NCBI GenBank assembly: GCA_950295325.1
Contig: OX485803.1
Location: 36,781,554 to 36,845,553 of the forward strand
Length of the DNA stretch: 64,000 nucleotides
Reading direction: 5' to 3'
From: Polytrichum commune
Lineage: Eukaryota; Streptophyta; Polytrichopsida; Polytrichales; Polytrichaceae
Shown here: in pieces, positions 13,891 to 25,400 of the stretch
How positions within the stretch are numbered: the first letter of the stretch is position 1
Layout of the letters: each line of letters begins with the position of its first letter
Notes under the pieces: model-generated
Database searches by the model: none
What the model was told of the DNA's origin: nothing
The model's input: the letters and a program-made list of their open reading frames with translations, nothing else
Translations under genes and position numbers: made by a program

Positions 13891-16800
13891 TTTGCCTCCT
13901 CCTACCCAAACATGAATGAATGCATCAGCCTAACCACCATGTGCATTTTTGTATTGCACATGAGAGAGAGGAAGACAAAGACTAATGGTCATCCCTAGCA
14001 CATTCCAAGTGGAGCGGTTGCCATGGACAAAGAGATAGAAAATTTTAAATTACATCAATGAAAGGCTGTAGTTACCGAGATTTGATTTTTGGCTTGTACA
14101 GTAGAGTTATCCTTAAATGTCAGTCGTCTTTTGGCCAAAGTCAAATGTCTCCCCCTCATTGCTCGAGAATTGGGGTTCCGACACCACTTGAACACTCCCT
14201 AAACTTCATCAAATGTCAAAAATGGGCCAAAACTCCTTACCCGACCATGAGTTTTGAGAGACTTTAAGGATAACTCCATTAGTCCAAACCTAGTCCAGCA
14301 TCTGCTTCTGCAGACTAAATTGCTGGATATCAAGCTCACTTGGTTTTCAACGTAGTTACATTAACTGTTTTTCTCTTGGTTTAAAATACTTATCCCAGAG
14401 TGCCATATGTTATAATGTGGTGCAGGACCAGAGGGGGAAAGTCGCAGAATCCAAAGCAACTCGAGGTGCTTCCTATTTAGAGTCCTGGATTACACCCCTG
14501 CAAAATGAACCTGTACAGATTTGAAGAACATAATTTGCACTATAATTGACCATTCACCCTGATTACTTGCGTACTAAAAGTGGGGTCCCTAAGGCTACCT
14601 TTTTACGCACATACATAGGATTTTTCAGATAGTTTTTATACCTGCACATGTTTGTACAATCTACAAAATTGATGAAGGAAGTCATAACTCCTGTGCTGTG
14701 CCAATTGCTTTCTCATAGTAACTACTCAGAATTTACATTGATATGTAGGATAATAGTGTGCCTTTACCTATGGCAGCAGAAGCAGGGACATCATCAGGTC
14801 TGTGGGTTGCATTTAATTAGGCTATTCCAAGGGCCTCTATGTACATCCTCCAGCAAGTCCTCCCTGAGGATTGAATTGTATCCAGTGCAATTTTAAAATA
14901 TTCAGTTTTTGGGTACAAGGTACGTGGACCTTATATGGTCACTTGTCTTAATTGGACGCCTATGTTTAAAATGGTGTATAGTACAAGGTTATAGTTAAGA
15001 GTGGACGCAAAACTGCCATTTCATATGACGTTAGTGGACTACCTATGTGATCAATATATAAGGTAGAAGGTGCTTGAACCAACACTTTAAGCTATTGTAC
15101 ATACATATGGCTATGTGTTGATATGAAAAAACATATAGTCATTCTAGCCTCAATTGAATAGTTGATGAATATTCAAAGTCAAAGCTATCAGCTTCCTTAA
15201 ACCAATTCATAGGCCTTGTGTGTGATGACCTCGCATATGGTGAGAACCCTTACCTTCATTGTCTAGAACCAACACAACATATTTGGGTATTATTAGCACC
15301 AAGCTAGATCAGAGGCCAACTAGTAGTGGTGTGCACAGCCACATGGCCATCTCCACGATCCAACTTGGTTTGCTTGCAAAACCATCACTTTGCATCATGG
15401 CTATCGACCCTCTTTATGCTTTGTGCGCCTTTTTCCTTGGCTTTGTGAATAGAGTGGCTACCACCGTTTCCCCTTTTGTATAGAATGGCTAGAATAGGCA
15501 TTGAAAAGCCACCCTAAACCCACCTTGAACCAACTTGACATAGAATGGGGCCGTTACCTACCCTACATGAAGATAGTGGAGGCAGCTATAAGATGACATC
15601 ACAAATGGCATCTAAAATTGTCACTCTGTGGGCTTGGACACTCCTACATCATGGGAAACGGCTCAAGATAATACAATGTTGGCAATTGGGAGGCGTTCAT
15701 AGGTGTTGGTTTTGAGTGGGGTGTTGGTTTTAGCACCCTCTACCTTAGACAACATTTCTAAACTCAATAGTGAACACAATTGGTGATCATGTAAACAAAA
15801 ACTTTTGCATCTTTACTCTTTGTGATTCGCAATTGCTGGTCCAACAGAGAAATGTCTGGGGTTGGAGTTGGAGTTGCCGACATTAAGGCCATATTACCTT
15901 AGATTCTCAAGTTTGGAAGGTAGAGAGATCCACAATCAAAAGTTATAATATTTGGCATTACTTCAGCTGTTGCAACAGCATTATGAGTGCCTGCTCTTTA
16001 TTCAATAAGAAAAACATTTGCCCCTTCGCACTTTGACCATGTAGTCATCACAAATCTTTAGATCCAGATATCAGCATTGAACTTGCATCACACTACATTA
16101 AATGAGTGCCTATCAAACTGAGTATAGGGTTGTAATTATATGCGTTTCTTTCCATATTTTGCACTTCAAGGGTGTATATACAGACACATTCACCACCAAT
16201 CCAGCCTTCATTTTCCTTAAATTGTACATTTAGGATTCACACAAGCCATGCCATCGTCAAAGCTCTCAAATTTTCCTTCCTTTTCCTTTGAGCTTCTTGG
16301 CCAAGTAGTGCCCAAGGGTTAAATCTGATGGCTAAGTAAAAAGGGAGGACCCTCGGATATCACTTGATGGAAGAAGAAAATTCACTTCCAATTGCCTAAT
16401 ACTCGAAGGAGAACCCATCACAAATTTTGCAAACGAGCCGCTAGGGGCCAAAGGCCCACCGCTAGTGGGAGAAGAAGTCCGCAGGGAAGTTGGCAAAGCA
16501 GAGAGTTTGTTTGGGAAATAGGTAGTGATGCTTACACCAAAAGAATCATCAAAACAACTACGAAACAATATGGAATGGTTTGATTTTTGATCTTGGCCTT
16601 GAAATCTGGCCCACACCTAACATAGAGATGATTGATATAATGTAAGCCATTATAAGATGGCCTGCAATAATCTCAATTAAGCTGTGTTTGGAAGTGTGCA
16701 TATGGGTATTGCAGTTCCGAGGGCCTTGTAACATAGTTATTGCCAATGAAGATGCCTCACCACATCCTTTATGACATTTTGTGGCACATACTATTTGGAA

Positions 16801-17028
16801 CTACACAAGGCTATTACTATTTTGTATATATATCATTATTTGCCACCATACTAGGTCAAATAGGTTGTTTAGGGTTATAGAACATAATCAACTTTACTTG
16901 GTGAAATCTTACATCACAAGTAAAAAAGTAAAAGCATGGTGTAACTCCAAGGTAAGTGACACTAATTACGATGAACAGTGTAGCACCATCACCGCATGTG
17001 GAAGTATGCTTACTTTCACTAAACTGGT

Positions 17029-17235
17029 ATGTGCAATTAGGCTACATTCATAAATATGTTGACTCTTTACCCATGCAAATAAACTTGGGCCAAAACCAGA
17101 TCAAAAAATCTTAAAAGTTTGTTTACACACCATATAGCAACCACATAAATTCATTTGTTTTGTTACTAAATGGTAATGAATATTCATAACTATGTGAGTG
17201 TCAACGAATTAGCAAGGATCAACCTAATTGCACAT
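17029..17235. mobile_element. MITE family D, copy 3
   Basis: This is a 207-bp element. The left end ATGTGCAATTAGGCT and right end CAACCTAATTGCACAT form an inverted repeat with a few mismatches. The interior contains the family block ACCATATAGCAACCACA. T at the left edge and A at the right edge fit a TA insertion site. Confidence 0.75.
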
Positions 17236-18106
17236 ATCAGTGTGTATGTCATATAAGCATTTAGTTCCCATCTTAATTTGGTCCACATCTAATTTTCACA
17301 TCACAAAATCTTGGATGCCTAGGTGGATAACCAGCCCATGCTTTAAAATTCCATGGATCATTTTGAAGAGGCAGTAATATGCAAGTAGGATGGTTCAGCA
17401 TCTGCGAGACCTGTTATATCTAATTGGTGAGAAAATGGATGGTATACATGACTTCCCACCGGTTGAAGCAAAAAGGCCAATTGAAAGGAGTACATATCCC
17501 AGGCTTCAAGGTTTGAAGGTCTTCGTATTGTATATCAAGAATTTGCTACATTTTGACATGACTGCCAACCCCCACTCACTGTTGTGACAGTTACACAAGC
17601 ACCTCTAAAGGTCATTTGCCCAGCTGGGGAATAGGAATCTGATATGTTGCATATTTTGAAAACAATGACATGAATGCCAAATTATTAGGAACCTAGTGCA
17701 AGTAATTACGTGATCTGCTTGCTAGTACACTTAGGTGAGTATCTTTAATCTTCCAATTGGAACTCAACTAAATCATATTAGGACAGGTCGTAACAAAATT
17801 CCTTCACATTGGAGCAGGATACCTGTATCACTGGAAACTCCTTTAACCACTACTGTACTTGTACGTGAATGAATATTTCAGGATAAAATGACTCGAGTTA
17901 ATGATCTCTAACAAAAGCACGAGTCTCAGCAGAATTCCTGAGCTAAACCAGTCAATAAGTGAGGTCTGCTCTGTATCTGACTAGCTTCTCTCAATTCCTC
18001 AGTCCCCACTGCCCGTTGTTGAACAGTCAGGACAGTCTCAATCCCTGAAAAGAATGTTTCTTTGCTTGGAAAAAAACTACAACCGTTTTAGTGCGGGAAA
18101 CTGTTT

Positions 18107-19413
18107 CTAAACTTCAATAGTTGATTTCAACATAGCCCTGTCTGATTCAGGCCAGAATACTTTGTGCAATTCCTGCACACACCTTGGAGCATCTTCATCA
18201 TCCACCACCATGAAGATATTCACCTGTTTCATGCAGAAGTATAAATCAAAACCTTGTCTCCATATCATGTCCAAGCATATTTAAGACCACATGGTTCCAC
18301 AAAAACTTTGTTCATTACTATTGACTCACAAGCCAGTGCATATTTATCCCGTGACCATTACTGTAAATAAAGCAACTTGGACTACAAATCTAAGATGAAC
18401 TTTACAACTTTCCACAAAAACGAGTAGAAGACTTCATAACATCTTTGTTGCACTACATAATGAATATGGAGAGTACTGATTGACCACACTTCTTCATGCA
18501 CCTATCCACACATCAAGTATTCACATCTCTAAAAAGGTACTCATTCTAGGTCTGCAAGAAATATCAAGGCGTCATATATATGCTTGTTGTTCAAAAACTT
18601 GCAATCAAATATTTCCACACCTTAGAGTCTCCTTGTGATATCATTTGGACATTGATTTTGTTCTTCTTAAAGACCCTGAAAACCTGCAACAATGAAGAAC
18701 ACATTACAAAATCAGCGATTTGATAAAGAACATCATTTGATCAAATGCACGCACATGTCCTCCTAGTGTGGCCTACATTTAGTTCCCAGATACCAATCCA
18801 ATCCCTCATTTTTCCCAATTCTGAGCACACTACCATACCAATACGGCATTTATATGTAACCAAGTGAACAGGGTTTGAAGTTAGTCATACTTTCTCCAAA
18901 ACGGCCGACGATTGCTGGACATTGCTAATAAGTGAGATAATCGCTTTGCTTTTCAGCAGCTCCACTGTAGCAATCCTTTCCAACTCTGACTTCATTTTTT
19001 CCAATTCCTGTTAACATCAGCTCCCTCATTACTTAGCTACTTGTCAAACAAAACCCTTGAAACAAGAACCTTCAGAAAGATGCAAAGAGTGATATAAAAA
19101 CACATTAAGGAATGTGTGAGCACAACAAACAAATTGTCTTTGCATGGGAGAAATTCATGGAGACCTAAAACCTCTTATCACCTGCCACTCAGGTGTTTTC
19201 GTATCATCTATTGTTGTTTACCTTCTAGTATACGATTATTCACTTTGTGCAGCCTGCTAGGTAGTGCTTTAGAATTTTAGAAACACTCAAATCACACAGG
19301 GAGTGTAGGTTTTTCACAAGTGTGTTCAGGTGGAAACTTGCCTGCTCAACAAGAGCTCGTTCATGCAGCATCCCATTAGGAACTCTATGGTGATGGAAGA
19401 TTAGTGGGACCTC
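18107..19413 (-). pseudogene. Aspartokinase C-terminal (ACT domain) gene fragment, frameshifted
   Basis: Four exon-like blocks on the minus strand, in order: 19413-19342, 19007-18892, 18683-18621, 18223-18107, ending at a TAG. They match the regulatory end of plant monofunctional aspartate kinase, the first enzyme of Lys/Thr/Met synthesis: IISLISNVQQSS, then VFRVFKKNKINVQMISQG, then VNIFMVVDDEDA. The catalytic domain is absent; upstream lies a PRPP-synthetase fragment instead. The second block has lost one base near 18898, where the family expects a V-L-E-K-type ending, and the shift runs into stops in the next block. The first block is also scrambled where the family has EVSISLTLDP, though its end HERALVEQ still fits. 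Its donor is AG|GCAAGT, a GC-type site. The splice sites survive, so the fragment was copied from genomic DNA rather than a processed mRNA. Confidence 0.75.
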
Positions 19414-19760
19414 CTGAAATTCTTCGCTACCTGAAATTCTAGAAGCTCTGCACCAGACCAGAAAACAACGTTGGAGTATAATTACAGAGTCATGTTGGAG
19501 TTGCTTTCCACACAGTATTGAGCTAGCTCTGCTCACAAAATGTTCACAAAGTACCTTAATGAATCATCTTCAAAATAAGCACAACACCTAAATAGCCCAA
19601 CAGAGCATCATTCCCAGTCAAGAATTATGTGCAACCTAAACAATGCCAAACATAAAAACGGACGACACGAGTAATTGATGGAAACTTCCTCTGCCTTGCA
19701 AGAACAACTCTTCAAACCACAGATAAGTCCCTGATTTTTATTCTCAGAGTGCAGAGCACA

Positions 19761-19833
19761 AACCATTTATTTCAGAATATATATTTCAGAGTATATATTT
19801 CAGAATATTTATTTATTTCAGAGGATATATTTC
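19761..19833. repeat. Short AT-rich tandem repeat between the two gene fragments
   Basis: There are four degenerate units of about 16-20 bp containing ATATATTTCAGA between the aspartokinase and PRPP-synthetase fragments. It is simple sequence with no coding content. Confidence 0.55.
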
Positions 19834-20200
19834 ATTTGCACCAAATCATTACCTAAAGCATGATATTAGCCTTTTAAGACCAGCGATAGCAATGATAAAA
19901 CATATGAATCCACCTCTTCCAGCTACTTCGCCAACTCACTATAATAATTTTGAGGGACTCTCACAATAACTGAGTCCTATCATAGTATACACTGTCCCAT
20001 AAACCAGGATGTAGGTAATCCTCAAGTTTTCCGAAAGGATTACATATATGAGACAACCTAACACTGCCATTGCTTTCGATTCAAGTAATTGAGGGAAAAA
20101 TGTGGCTTAGTCCCAAGGCTTTAGACCAGCTCCCTTTGTAGACAATCAAAAGGACAACTTTCTAATGCAAATTGCTTCCGAAAATGAAGAGAGCACTCAC

Positions 20201-20929
20201 ATTGTTGGAATCTGGAAGCTGGTGGAGGCGATGCTTCAGCAATGGAATGCCACTCTCAAAGCAAGGCAGCACATTATCTCCAAAGTAGAACCTTTCCTGA
20301 AACCCATTGATCACTCAAACTGGTAAACGGAGACACATATATAAGTGTACAATAAAGACAATGAAATAAGTGGCAGTAAGTGCATGGGGTCCTTCCAAAA
20401 ACTAAACTAAAACTGCATAGTGAGAAATTTAGAAACAGATACATGCAATTAGCAACCTGAACAATGCTTCTTTTGACAAAGAAGTATTCGATTAGATGAT
20501 AATCATGCCTCACAAAGCAAACAGTCCTTCATCAACTATGCCATAGAATACAGAACAAGAGGCAAGAATTAGAGGATGAAGAAATACAAAAGACAAGCCA
20601 AAGCCTGTCATGGATGGAGGGCATGGATGTCAAAAATAACAAGGCTTGTGGGCCCACCCCTTGAGATGGGGATATTTGAAAGTATCCGGGCTAAAGTGAA
20701 GGCTGTTGCAATGTCTCCTTCATCTTCCATGCGCTCTAATGTCCCCGTAGGAAAAAATGGCAACACAAGAGTGAAGGACGAAACAAACATACGGGGTAAG
20801 GCGTAGATGATTGACAGCTGCTCAAAAATTACTGTTGGTGAGCTGAATGACGCCAAAAAGGCTACATGCTGACCACGAATGCCATGTGCATTAGGCACAA
20901 ACACGTTTGGAAATCCATCTGCAAATGTC
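20201..20929 (-). pseudogene. Ribose-phosphate pyrophosphokinase (PRPP synthetase, PRS3/4 type) gene fragment
   Basis: Two exon-like blocks on the minus strand: 20929-20614 and 20296-20201. The first reads from TFADGFPN through [39 protein letters not shown] and [22 protein letters not shown]. The second reads [11 protein letters not shown] to LPDSNN, with a GTGAGT donor. This is the N-terminal half of plant class II PRPP synthetase, which makes the precursor of nucleotides, His and Trp. The N-terminal ~45 residues and everything after LPDSNN, including the PRPP-binding VVIVDDLVQSGGT loop, are missing. Family alignment puts the first exon end at HALH, but the sequence there is CAT|CCATGA with no GT or GC donor and an in-frame stop two codons on. 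A working enzyme cannot come from this locus. Confidence 0.78.
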
Positions 20930-22480
20930 CTGCTCCACAGCATTACAGAAACTCATCATCAGAAGATGGCAGCCAGAAATTCACAAGTAGAACATGAGAC
21001 GAAGTCCATTTGATGTGATAGTTGAATAGAGTTTCGCACACTTGTGTTGCACTTCTCCCTCTGCTGCCAATCGTCAACAAATTGGCAGAAGAAAGGCCGA
21101 GCTGGACGCTGGATTCCAACAATGCGCGCCCCAGCAGCGACGACGGCCCAAGGTGTCCGAAACTTGGTGAGGCTTGAAAGAACGATGTAAATTGTTGGAG
21201 CTGGCGTTCAAAATTGTGGAGCAGCAGCAGCAGCGGCACAGCTCCATGGCTTCGATGGGGTTTTGGTTTGCCCAGAAATTGGAGTTTATACTCGCAATTA
21301 CTGCATCCCCAACTTCTTGGATTAGCCTCCTGTGAATGTGGGAATTGGGGGAAACTCTCAAATCATGTGATTTCTAAGCCGCCGAGCGAGACACAAACCC
21401 ACTACTGCTCAAGAAACTTTCCGGGCGATAGGTCAGGGAAGAAGAAGACGCAGCTGGGTGGTTTGATTTCGACTCTCCGAATCACAATTGTGTGAAAATT
21501 CGTTACTGTCGATTCTCCAACTTCAGCTGCCACCACAACTCTCGAGCGTCGCCGACTCGTAGGGTAATGAAGAAGATGGCGTAATTTTTTCAATGTAATT
21601 TCGGAACAGCATTTTAGAGGGAATACTGGACCAAATTCGTTAAGAAGACTATGGCTGGAACCGGAAGAAAATTTTCGATCGAAGCGTATGTGGCACGGGG
21701 AGTATTGCGGAAAGGGAAGAGAGAAGGAGGGTGTCGGAGGCAGTGGCTATGGCGAAACTGGAGAGACGAAAAGCAGCTTCAAGGAAACACGATGGTCAAA
21801 ATGACAGAACTACGTAGATTTTACGTAGATTGGTAGATTAACGGCGTTTTCGAGGTCTGAGTGGCGACGTGGCCTCACGAGAGGCCAGAACCCTGTTTTG
21901 GGTGCCATAGACTTCTTCTCGACAAGAAGGTATACACTCCAAAGATACAACAAGAGCGTCTCTCATTTAAAAAAAGATGCCACTGCATGGGCATCTAAAC
22001 CCAAAGAGGATGGCCAAGCATATACTTTTTCATGATCAGAAAACGCAGCATGGAAAGCCTACACTTAAAATTGTCCAATTTGGAAGAAAATGAGCACAAG
22101 AACACTCTCCAAGGATTCTTACAATACACGATGGGGGCACTTCATGTATCTTAGAAGCTGAGGGTCATAAAATTCAATCTAGCTACACCCTGCCCCATTA
22201 TTTTCAAATGCCCCAATTGGGAAACAAAATCAATCTACCTAAGACATCATAAGAAACTTGCAGGTACACAAACCAGACTTGATGAAGATAGAGCACTGAC
22301 TCAACAAAAAATATTTGTTGAAAAATGGGAAAAGATGAAAGAGCTTTGGAAGTCAAGGAAAATTATAGCCAAGATCGTACGTGGAGAAACTGTAGTACTT
22401 GAAGATGGGTCCAAAACCTAGTCATACAACATGATCAGAAGTCAGGTTATTTGAAGCAACATCAAGGGACACAACTCAAC
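20930..22480. other. Relatively GC-rich stretch upstream of the PRS fragment, then LINE-like sequence
   Basis: From 20930 to about 21900 the sequence is richer in GC than its surroundings and has overlapping frames on both strands, none matching the missing PRS N-terminus (VHLFYC-type). It could be promoter-like DNA carried with the fragments. A 6-bp-stem hairpin GGCCTC-ACGA-GAGGCC sits at 21871-21886. From about 21980 the sequence may belong to the 5' part of the downstream LINE, but no domain is recognisable. Confidence 0.4.
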
Positions 22481-22489
22481 CTCACAAGT

Positions 22490-25400
22490 CATGCCCCATT
22501 TTATGTGTTCGTTGGAATTGTAAAGGTTATTCTATGCATGACTATATTATAGTAGCAAGTATTTCCCCAACTATAGATCTATTATTCTTAGTAGAAACAT
22601 GGGGAAAAACATGGAATAGGACCTGCCTAAAGTCATTTTTCCACCGCATGAGATGGATTTTGCATCATACAATCCAACACTACTACTCAAGGACATGGCG
22701 GTATCGTTGTATTTATTAGGACATCTAGCTGCACATGGGTCTCACATTTCCCTCTTCTCACACGGACACACATTTGGATTAGGATCCACATGGATATAGG
22801 TCTCTCCACGGATATATATAGACACATGTTATTTTTCACCCTCTAGCACTGAAAGCTACAAATCTACAAATACAAACCCCTACACTTTTCTTTTCATCGA
22901 GTTTGTTTGATATCAATCTTTAGGGATTTTTTTTCTAGTAGGAGATTTTAATGCTCGAACAAGTTCTCACCAAGGACAAGACCTCCATCTTGACGACAAT
23001 GGCACCAACCTCCTAGAGGTTACTAGACCCCATTGGTTCAAAGAGTTTGGCAATATTGGCCATTACAATGCATTCGGTTGATTTTTTTTCTTTTTTAAAT
23101 TGTCCTTCTCCGGCTTTGTAATTCTTAATGAGGTACATAAGTGATGTCAAAATTTCACTTCTTTCTTTAGTAGGTGGGGCTAGTGTAGTTGACTACGTCA
23201 TAGGTGATCCCAACTCCCTTCATAATTATGTCTCCAATTTCTCCATAGATGGCCTTATCAACTAAAATGAGCCAATTGGTCCACTCAATTTAATGTAGGG
23301 AATGTGATGGGAATGTAATGATTGCTAGTTGGTACAAGAGAATACCCGTTGAGGGTTCTTAAAATACAACTCAACCATTCCAATACACCCACACATGTTT
23401 ATAAAACCATACAAATAATCAATTGTAATATGGAAGATCTCATCAATTATGACGGTACGGATTGTCTCATAATGGCCCAATTGGCTCATTTTAGTTGATA
23501 AGGCCATATAGGTAAAAAAAACAACTTGATTCAGACCACTACCCTCTCTTCTTCAATTTAGGTCATAGTATCAAGGCTTACATCTCACTCTAGTCAAGGT
23601 CAAGACCTCTAATCTAATCCTAAGAAAGCAAATTGATATGTTCTCAATGTCAAACATGAACTCATTTTTGTGCAAAGCCAAATATACACTTTATTAGATA
23701 ACCACACTCAAGCATGGCTACACTTCATATTGCGCACAACCCGACCTATCTTCTCCAAAAAGGTAGATAGTAAACAATGAGGCAGAGTGTCCAACACATG
23801 GTTTGATAGCGACAATCAAGAGGCCCGGAAAAATAATGCCTCCAAAGTGGCTTTTACAAAATACCATATGATGATTTGGTATAAGAAATGTTCCTACATG
23901 GAGCACAAACAAAATGAACTACATGCTCTACTCAAAAGTGACCCAAAATTGATTTGGAAAAGCTTTGGAGAAAAAGTTGATTCGACCCTCCCATTTATGC
24001 CACAAGGAGTAGATTATTGCACAAAACTATACACCTCAGGACAAAGTACCATTGCTCACTTTGTTTTGAGCATTCAGCTTCCTAATGTTTTAACAATAGG
24101 GAAAATTTGGGCCCATATGAAAGATTTAGCAAATCATAAAGCAGGAGATATCCATGGGTTAAAACTAAAGTTTCTAATATAGGTTGGAAATGATATGTGT
24201 CAACCAATCACATTGCTATTTAATTCGGTGGCTAAACAAGGTTACCCGGCTTCATGGATTATCAACATCATTCAAATGATCTTCAAATTTGGTGAAAGAC
24301 AGTCCTTGGTGAATTATAGGACCATAATGCTTGGAACAATCTTTGGCAAACTTTATGGCTTTGTTGTCCATAAAATGATTAGTCAATGGGCGAAATTGAA
24401 GTCTGGAGGGAAGGTAGATCCACTTTAGATCACACCCTCACATTACGTACTTTAATCGCACAAGAAATATTTGAGGTCGATGTCTCTATTCTTGTTTTGT
24501 TGATTTCAAAAAAACTTTTGACACAATTCCACATGACAAGCTTTGGGAATGCCTCCCATGATTAGGTGTACTACCTCAGTTACAAAAACATTGTACACCA
24601 CAATCTATTCAAAAGTTCGAATAAATGGCAACACACATGGTGAAGTAAAGTTTGACATTGGTGTTAAACAAAGATGTCCCCTCTCGCCCACACTATTTAG
24701 CTTGTACATTGATGAACTTGAAACATATTTGTATGGGATCAACATGGATTCTCCGTGTTTATTTAACACAATGGTTGCCATTATTCTTTATGCCAATAAT
24801 GTTGTTCTACTTTCTAAATCAAGAGTAGGCCTACAAAGGCTTTTGAACACGCTATGTAAGTTTTGCACTACTTGGAGCCTTGGAGCCTTGGAGACTAAAA
24901 TCATGATACTTGACCTCAACAAAAGCAAATTAAACCAAGAGGCATTTTACCTAGACAAAAACCAAATTGAGATCACTCATGAATACAAATACCTTGGATG
25001 GTTACTTTGAGCCATCTAGTAAAAGGCAAAGAATCATAGGTATGAAGCCTTGATGGGCACTTTAAGGAAAGAAGCAATAGTCAAAGTCACATGTCAGGAA
25101 CTTAAATCCCATCTATTCAGGGCTTTGGTGCTTTATACTTCCACATATGGCACTGAAATTTGGAGAGCTGCCTTGAAAAATACTCATTCAAACGTTTTCA
25201 AGAAGGGCATGAAGATGCATATGATGTCTCACAACAAAGTCCGTTCTTTGACTACCTATCATATTTTGTTGGACAAATTTGGAGAAATGCCCATAGAATT
25301 ATACACTCTCAACCTTACTATGGGTTTTCGACAATGGCTTGCCCACCGGTCCCCTCTTGGTAAGTCAGTAAACCAGCTTCACTCTCCTAACACCTGGCCA

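Follow-up and report, generated by a model that had tools for sequence, protein, structure and literature searches.

Fragments of two unrelated genes as probable cargo of a Helitron2/Helentron-type element in the moss Polytrichum commune

The PRPP synthetase (PRS) and aspartokinase (AK) fragments found at positions 18107-20929 of the window (i.e., the whole 64,000-nucleotide stretch of Polytrichum commune DNA analysed here) are very probably, at a probability of about 0.88, cargo carried by a non-autonomous Helitron2/Helentron-type rolling-circle transposon whose family members have recombined with one another. The element, of about 5.49 kb, encloses both pieces and ends beyond that segment. 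Its termini, the empty sites of two sister insertions, the donor genes, the mosaic build, the letters at the junctions and the RepHel sequences upstream of family 3' ends were read directly from the assembly. The first-pass annotation had proposed a product of capture or exon shuffling, and this was borne out: the pieces lie inside a transposable element and their parents elsewhere in the genome. The copies show how rolling-circle elements stitch pieces of unrelated genes together, here with a Helitron2-type family of a moss capturing several genes, along with their introns, on repeated occasions.

Boundaries and termini of the element

The genome assembly comprises 407.8 Mb in 64 contigs, seven of which (77.9 to 42.1 Mb) hold nearly everything; its contigs are labelled C1 to C6 where named here, and matched genomic copies or loci are labelled L001 and so on. 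A DNA search with 18107-20929 returned 25 matches, i.e., the window itself and 24 partial matches with varying breakpoints. In searches with the flanks, most copies began at window positions 16430-16434 and several ended near 21922-21926. The best 40 of 1,874 and the best 40 of 342 candidates were scored in these searches, and the copy numbers are therefore lower bounds. The first-pass annotation had seen no carrier termini; the ends were located outside the segment that it described, at 16434 and 21922, by means of the genomic copies (Table 1). It had suggested that other copies of the segment be sought; the AK half and the 5' part recur elsewhere, and the edges of the copies gave common termini. 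The boundary itself was set from the empty sites of two sister copies (L003 and L009), not from the window copy.

Among aligned end rows that were picked for matching the ends, 8/8 read TCGAGAAGAAGTCT at the 5' end and 11/11 read CTCGTT at the 3' end, in each case beside unrelated flanks. The family has no fewer than 78 such 3' ends in the genome. The matches to the 3' tail were obtained with a 31-base pattern (at most two mismatches), the reversed pattern serving as the control. TT stands at the end of 73 of the 78 matches and another dinucleotide at five, the pattern itself containing TT.

Empty sites were sought with the joined flanks of seven copies, the best 40 of 1,241 candidates being scored. 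They were obtained for two of the seven queries, L003 and L009, and none was present among the candidates scored for the other five, the window's own query included. All six fetched repeats for L003 read AATAG^TTATTG, with further repeats listed, and the one repeat listed for L009 reads GGTTA^TTGTTTG, as judged by eye, the aligner having misplaced the gap. The TT is therefore host DNA, the element is TCGAG...CTCG, and the target bases are not duplicated; a target-site duplication was sought at the empty sites of both sister insertions and was absent. The target is N^TT, from which a one-base shift (T^T) is indistinguishable, and the base before the TT is G at L003 and A at L009.

Folding of the ends was compared with that of shuffled sequences. 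Three variants of the 5' end gave z scores of -1.95, -1.91 and 0.49, i.e., two folded weakly better than their shuffles and the third did not, and the 3' end folded no better (z -0.72, with 46 of 200 shuffles as good). Past the 5' end of the element, and outside it, three endonuclease-looking reading frames lie at window 22435-24180, for which a Pfam scan returned no match. The flank at 21971-22296 has many genomic matches, at 68-74% identity.

Table 1. Features of the element in the window (positions are those of the window; labels as in the text)
Feature	Position	Strand	Remarks
Whole element	16434..21922	(-)	5489 bp; 5' TCGAGAAGAAGTCT ... 3' ...GGCTCG; common start and stop of genomic copies
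Host TT (target dinucleotide)	16432..16433	.	Aligned 3' ends and empty sites, N^TT
5' asymmetric terminal inverted repeat, GAGAAGAAGTC (11 bp)	21910..21920	(-)	2 bp from 5' end, after TC
5' palindrome, GGCCTC-TCGT-GAGGCC	21871..21886	(-)	60-nt end fold z -1.95
3' copy of inverted repeat, GACTTCTTCTC	16469..16479	(-)	35 nt from 3' end, directly before palindrome
3' hairpin-like tail ending GGGCCTTTGGCCCCTAGCGGCTCG	16434..16470	(-)	78 genomic matches, control 0
Constant 3' terminal segment of family, about 285 bp	16434..16716	(-)	Common to members with other cargo, e.g. L015, L016
5' part common to L003 and L004	21036..21922	(-)	21033-21584 also 87% to C5 locus
PRS-derived DNA	20143..21035	(-)	Donor within C6:21769300-21777000
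PRS exon 2	20614..20937	(-)	Splice donor lost
PRS exon 3	20198..20296	(-)	
Segment Y	19824..20142	(-)	In PRS-bearing element on C2; unmatched at sequenced PRS donor
46-bp filler, PRS/AK junction	19778..19823	(-)	Near-repeats of both flanks; repeat family D1
AK-derived DNA	16717..19777	(-)	Two internal deletions; about 50 bp gone at 3' edge
AK exon 9 tail	about 19342..19356	(-)	By alignment
AK exon 10	18891..19007	(-)	
AK exon 11	18621..18683	(-)	
AK exon 12 (C terminus, ACT domain)	18110..18223	(-)	Stop codon just after

Captured gene pieces and their donors

Exons are numbered after those located in the donor genes. A PRS piece followed by an AK piece on one strand, as first described, was confirmed: PRS exons 2-3 precede AK exons 10-12 on the minus strand, and both genes are in sense orientation relative to the element. 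The AK piece had been described as the C-terminal ACT exons only, which holds for exons 10-12, to which the tail of exon 9 must be added. The distance from PRS exon 3 to that tail is about 840 bp, which corrects the earlier figure of less than 800 bases. Introns are kept in both pieces, as had been claimed, and retain the donors' splice sites, with the exception of the splice donor after PRS exon 2, which has been destroyed. No further part of either gene was found in the element, again as described: PRS exons 1 and 4 and AK exons 1-8 gave no alignment when compared with the element, and no PRS exons outside 2-3 were found when the PRS paralogue was used to search window 15001-23000. The AK piece matches Pfam ACT_9 (E 1.8e-15). 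The window PRS piece matches Pribosyltran_N at E 9.4e-5 and 22.7 bits, under the 25-bit cut-off, whereas the donor PRS, which is longer, exceeds that cut-off. At the edge of the PRS capture, 69 bp (window 20133-20201) recur at five other places with 99-100% identity.

The first-pass annotation had called for a search for the complete genes, and fuller parents of both are present, AK on C3 and PRS on C6; the missing exons lie at these parent loci, on other contigs, and not in order near the fragments. The AK donor (C3:15199500-15213600) has 12 located exons, which begin with a start codon, encode an N terminus resembling a transit peptide and reach the stop; it matches 2cdq (E 8.5e-205). Its exon edges were placed by eye, with a gap of about 14 unplaced residues between exons 2 and 3. 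The seven located exons of the PRS donor correspond to residues 27-342 of the 352-aa paralogue frame, and an acceptor-like AG precedes the first of them; the start codon may therefore lie in one more exon farther 5'. Divergence between donors and elements is 2-3% in introns, and the sequenced donors are therefore not exactly the captured sequences.

Two genes on C2 were considered as parents and rejected. An AK-like gene (L026), which may be a bifunctional AK-HSDH, is only 41-45% identical to those AK exons of L001 and the C3 locus to which it aligned, and gave way to the C3 gene. A PRS paralogue (L019, C2:21025996-21026400), intronless and with a 352-aa open frame, is 69% identical to the captured exons, and was replaced as parent by the C6 gene.

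A locus on C5 resembles the 5' part of the sister elements (91% over 3.1 kb) and the window element (87% over 572 bp, 21033-21584). It is possibly a third donor, its gene unnamed, or else a paralogue; when the gene carried in the 5' part was scanned with Pfam in its L004 version, no named family was returned. A cluster of 14 light-harvesting protein genes, of equal family score and on both strands, lies at C5:1751760-1846160. A light-harvesting protein of the genome matches plant chains, with the highest score for 9vfj_2 (620 aa), followed by 8htu and 7xqp, two structures from the moss Physcomitrium.

Mosaic build and junctions

The window element is a mosaic of sequence from different family members. 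Window 19777-16432 is 99% identical to L001 and L002, which have the same two AK deletions; 21035-19824 matches, at 99.4%, the PRS-bearing element L012, which has PRS exons 1-3 and a 5' end of its own; and 21033-21923 is 96% identical to L003 and 95% to L004. L004 retains AK exons 4, 5, 8 and 10-12, most of exon 9 and part of exon 3, and therefore stands between the donor and the window element in its loss of AK sequence; its AK exon 4 contains a stop. AK-derived DNA occurs at no fewer than 12 places besides the window and the donor, a tally that includes C3:1311494, whose sequence was not fetched, and at 10 of the 12 it extends to the family 3' end. The PRS-AK junction was found in the window only, i.e., in one copy among the assembly matches.

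One PRS-bearing element on C3 is apparently split by about 107 kb into L014 (C3:8653041-8653396) and L015 (C3:8760639-8760984). The PRS pieces of the two share 4 bp (window 20574-20577), the pattern that would be expected of a nested insertion that duplicated a short target. On C2, the PRS-bearing L012 may span about 24 kb (C2:28484877-28508756, with L040 and L020); its possible 3' end is 98% like that of L015 over 213 bp, and repeats occupy part of the intervening stretch.

The filler at the PRS/AK junction is built from near-repeats of TTCTGAAATAAAT and GAAATATAT, taken from the two flanks. The junction at 21033-21035 is a GAA microhomology common to both sources. One AK deletion carries a 6-bp filler that duplicates nearby GAATTTCAGG, and the second a 3-bp microhomology, both as judged by eye. 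Such scars are what templated end joining by polymerase theta leaves. The microhomology and the two templated fillers therefore favour break repair inside the element over a simple bypass of the 3' end. A second family 3' end was sought inside the window element and none was found, so the cargo lies within constant ends, a placement that simple end bypass does not predict and that composite transposition could produce.

RepHel sequences upstream of family 3' ends

Helitron_like_N was found at 34 places in the genome, and four of these (C3:5.80 Mb, C6:32.89 Mb, C3:53.03 Mb and C1:7.76 Mb) are followed downstream, on their own strand, by a family 3' end; the four distances are 3.3, 4.6, 6.7 and 11.2 kb. 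Four such pairs within 12 kb compare with 0.039 expected by chance (P 9e-8); the count leaves aside pairs 17.7 and 24.7 kb apart and one with the 3' end 14.3 kb away on the upstream side. In three of the four loci the similarity to sister copies of the window element is confined to some 75-150 bp at the 3' end (89-96%), and the fourth shares the whole 285-bp 3' segment with the window, at 98%. At one locus the Rep part matches Helraiser (7lcc; E 7.6e-10), and the same locus carries Helitron_like_N and PIF1 by Pfam.

The fetched stretches of the four loci contained no family 5' end, and their reading frames are interrupted. The loci are therefore relatives of the element's partner rather than the demonstrated partner, and no intact autonomous partner was found among them. 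Six RepHel-locus ORFs, from these broken loci, were scanned for an endonuclease domain, which in Helentrons is fused to RepHel, and none had one.

Drift of the captured exons

Fixed differences between donors and elements were counted at PRS sites covered by two or three copies and at AK sites covered by all four copies used. Exons showed 3/512 for PRS and 1/318 for AK, and introns with flanks 22/1069 and 33/1618, respectively. Combined, fixed differences are rarer in exons (4/830 versus 55/2687; Fisher P 0.0010). Between copies, none of the comparisons was significant: for PRS, 3/422 in exons versus 1/471 in introns (window and L012) and 6/413 versus 3/742 (L012 and L014), and for AK, 2/318 versus 11/1624 (window and L001). 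As the contrast between exons and introns is lost between copies, most of the divergence seems to have arisen in the constrained source gene, and the cargo to have drifted freely thereafter. Two readings fit: the alleles may have differed by about 2% from the sequenced donors when they were captured, or most of the change may have occurred in the donors. Exons in the elements drift in the way that introns do, which suggests that the fragments are passengers.

Proposed origin and alternative explanations

We infer the rolling-circle movement, the repair pathway and the order of the steps as follows. Earlier members of the family would have acquired most of the resident aspartokinase gene, in a stretch beginning within exon 1 and running beyond the stop, and separately a family member would have taken exons 1-3, as located here, of the resident PRS gene together with DNA upstream of them. 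The copies may then have spread, shed internal exons and recombined with each other. The window element would have formed when PRS DNA of a PRS-bearing member was used to close a break in an AK-bearing one, probably by microhomology and templated end joining of a polymerase-theta-like kind. The element presumably moves, or moved, with a borrowed RepHel protein made elsewhere, and would insert next to TT without duplicating the target. That this Helitron2-type family is a serial gene shuffler, working by templated microhomology repair of breaks and exchange between members, not by bypass of the 3' end, and drawing some of its cargo from lost alleles or paralogues, is put forward tentatively, with odds a little short of even.

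Pack-MULEs and similar TIR elements likewise capture gene pieces with introns, and the first-pass annotation had named a Pack-MULE as a possible carrier. Such an element, or another TIR transposon, is extremely improbable here and was rejected on termini and target: a search of the window element for long terminal inverted repeats found only the 11-bp asymmetric pair, and the empty sites of the two sister insertions show no duplication, of 9 bp or of any other length. Canonical Helitrons, to which the gene-capturing Helitrons of maize belong, have TC...CTRR termini and an A^T target, and the annotation had offered these termini as its other suggestion. The 5' TC is indeed present in 8/8 aligned 5' ends, but the 3' end is CTCG, not CTRR, and the target is N^TT, not between A and T, and a canonical Helitron (Helitron1) was rejected as well. 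The terminal anatomy is that of the Helitron2/Helentron group. A mis-join in the assembly, or a decayed tandem array of real genes, would fit the finding of the PRS-AK junction only once, but is extremely improbable: each half is found in other copies, where the internal breakpoints are identical, the 3' end of the element is that of 77 other places, and the filler mixes sequence from both flanks, which is not expected from a mis-join. Recurrence of the AK half and the 5' part in other copies makes the assembly error that had earlier been raised unlikely for those parts; the PRS-AK junction is represented by one copy.

The route of uptake allows a rather unlikely alternative, in which a family 5' end lay upstream of a gene and the 3' end of another copy downstream, and everything between was copied (composite or read-through uptake). 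The AK DNA directly adjoins the constant 285-bp 3' segment, as it would if a truncated 3' fragment lay downstream of the gene, L007, L008 and L018 showed only a 3' end in the short stretch fetched, and one-ended Helitron2 copies are described for Chlamydomonas in the part of PMC3627910 drawn on here. Against this, no internal 3' end is left in the window element (the sister elements lie outside that check), the fetched locus of the sequenced AK donor contains no family 3' end, none of the 78 pattern matches is near the AK or the PRS donor locus, and the templated filler at the PRS/AK junction indicates break repair for that step. A working new gene under selection is very improbable. The sense orientation of both captured genes would suit one, as would the few differences of window PRS exons 2-3 from the donor (2/422, versus 14/466 in introns). 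Between element copies, however, exons differ as much as introns or more (none significantly), three of the four changes in window AK exons 10-12 alter the protein, and the PRS exon-2 splice donor is missing in all three copies that span it.

Comparison with known systems

A Helitron2-like placement of the family is suggested by its termini and its target. Helitron2 elements (Bao and Jurka) are known from a green alga, from a lycophyte and from insects (PMC3627910, in part) and also from fungi (PMC5148889, in part). As given in the same portion of PMC3627910, Helitron2 inverted repeats are asymmetric and 8-15 bp long, with the 5' copy 0-2 bp from the 5' end, and typical members have a 5' T, a T-rich target and no target duplication. 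The family described here is alike in these respects, its repeats being asymmetric, with the 5' copy 2 bp from the end and the 3' copy just before the terminal palindrome. It differs in target, N^TT in the window element versus TTTT^T/C in Helitron2 (PMC3627910, in part). The 3' repeat lies 35 nt from the end, which exceeds the 20-30 bp of PMC3627910 and falls inside the 20-40 bp of PMC5148889, in the excerpts used. Helitron2 hairpins occur at both ends, the 5' one involving the repeat; in the present family each end has a palindrome, the 5' one being mostly apart from the repeat. Pieces of host genes are carried.

Helentrons and HINEs, as portrayed in the sections of PMC4067079 cited here, likewise have a TT target, sub-terminal inverted repeats and a 3' stem-loop, and their non-autonomous copies outnumber the partners. 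In contrast to Helentrons in that account, the window element begins TCGAG, the aligned ends show no variable T tracts, and the few RepHel-locus ORFs scanned here had no endonuclease domain. The same sections describe Helentron gene capture as infrequent, in Culex and Phytophthora.

Gene capture by Helitrons is well known in maize, where stepwise gain of unrelated gene fragments and internal loss are described (PMC3288121, in part), as in the present family; the differences from that description are the termini and the joining, in the window element, of sequence from different family members. The bat element Helraiser (PDB 7lcc) shares the Rep domain homology noted above. The route by which Helitrons take up genes is debated, and end bypass is the experimentally supported one (PMC5148889, in part); it takes DNA from beyond the 3' end, whereas the cargo here lies inside constant ends.

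No Helitron2-type multi-gene capture in a bryophyte is named in the open-licence titles and abstract openings surveyed, among which two liverwort papers mention Helitrons (PMC13182070 and PMC12885004). For a Helitron2-type family, recurrent capture of several genes with their introns is unusual, and what sets the present case apart is the combination of features and the readability of each step. As a single genome preserves the donors, the intermediates and the junctions in readable form, rival capture routes can be tested copy by copy.
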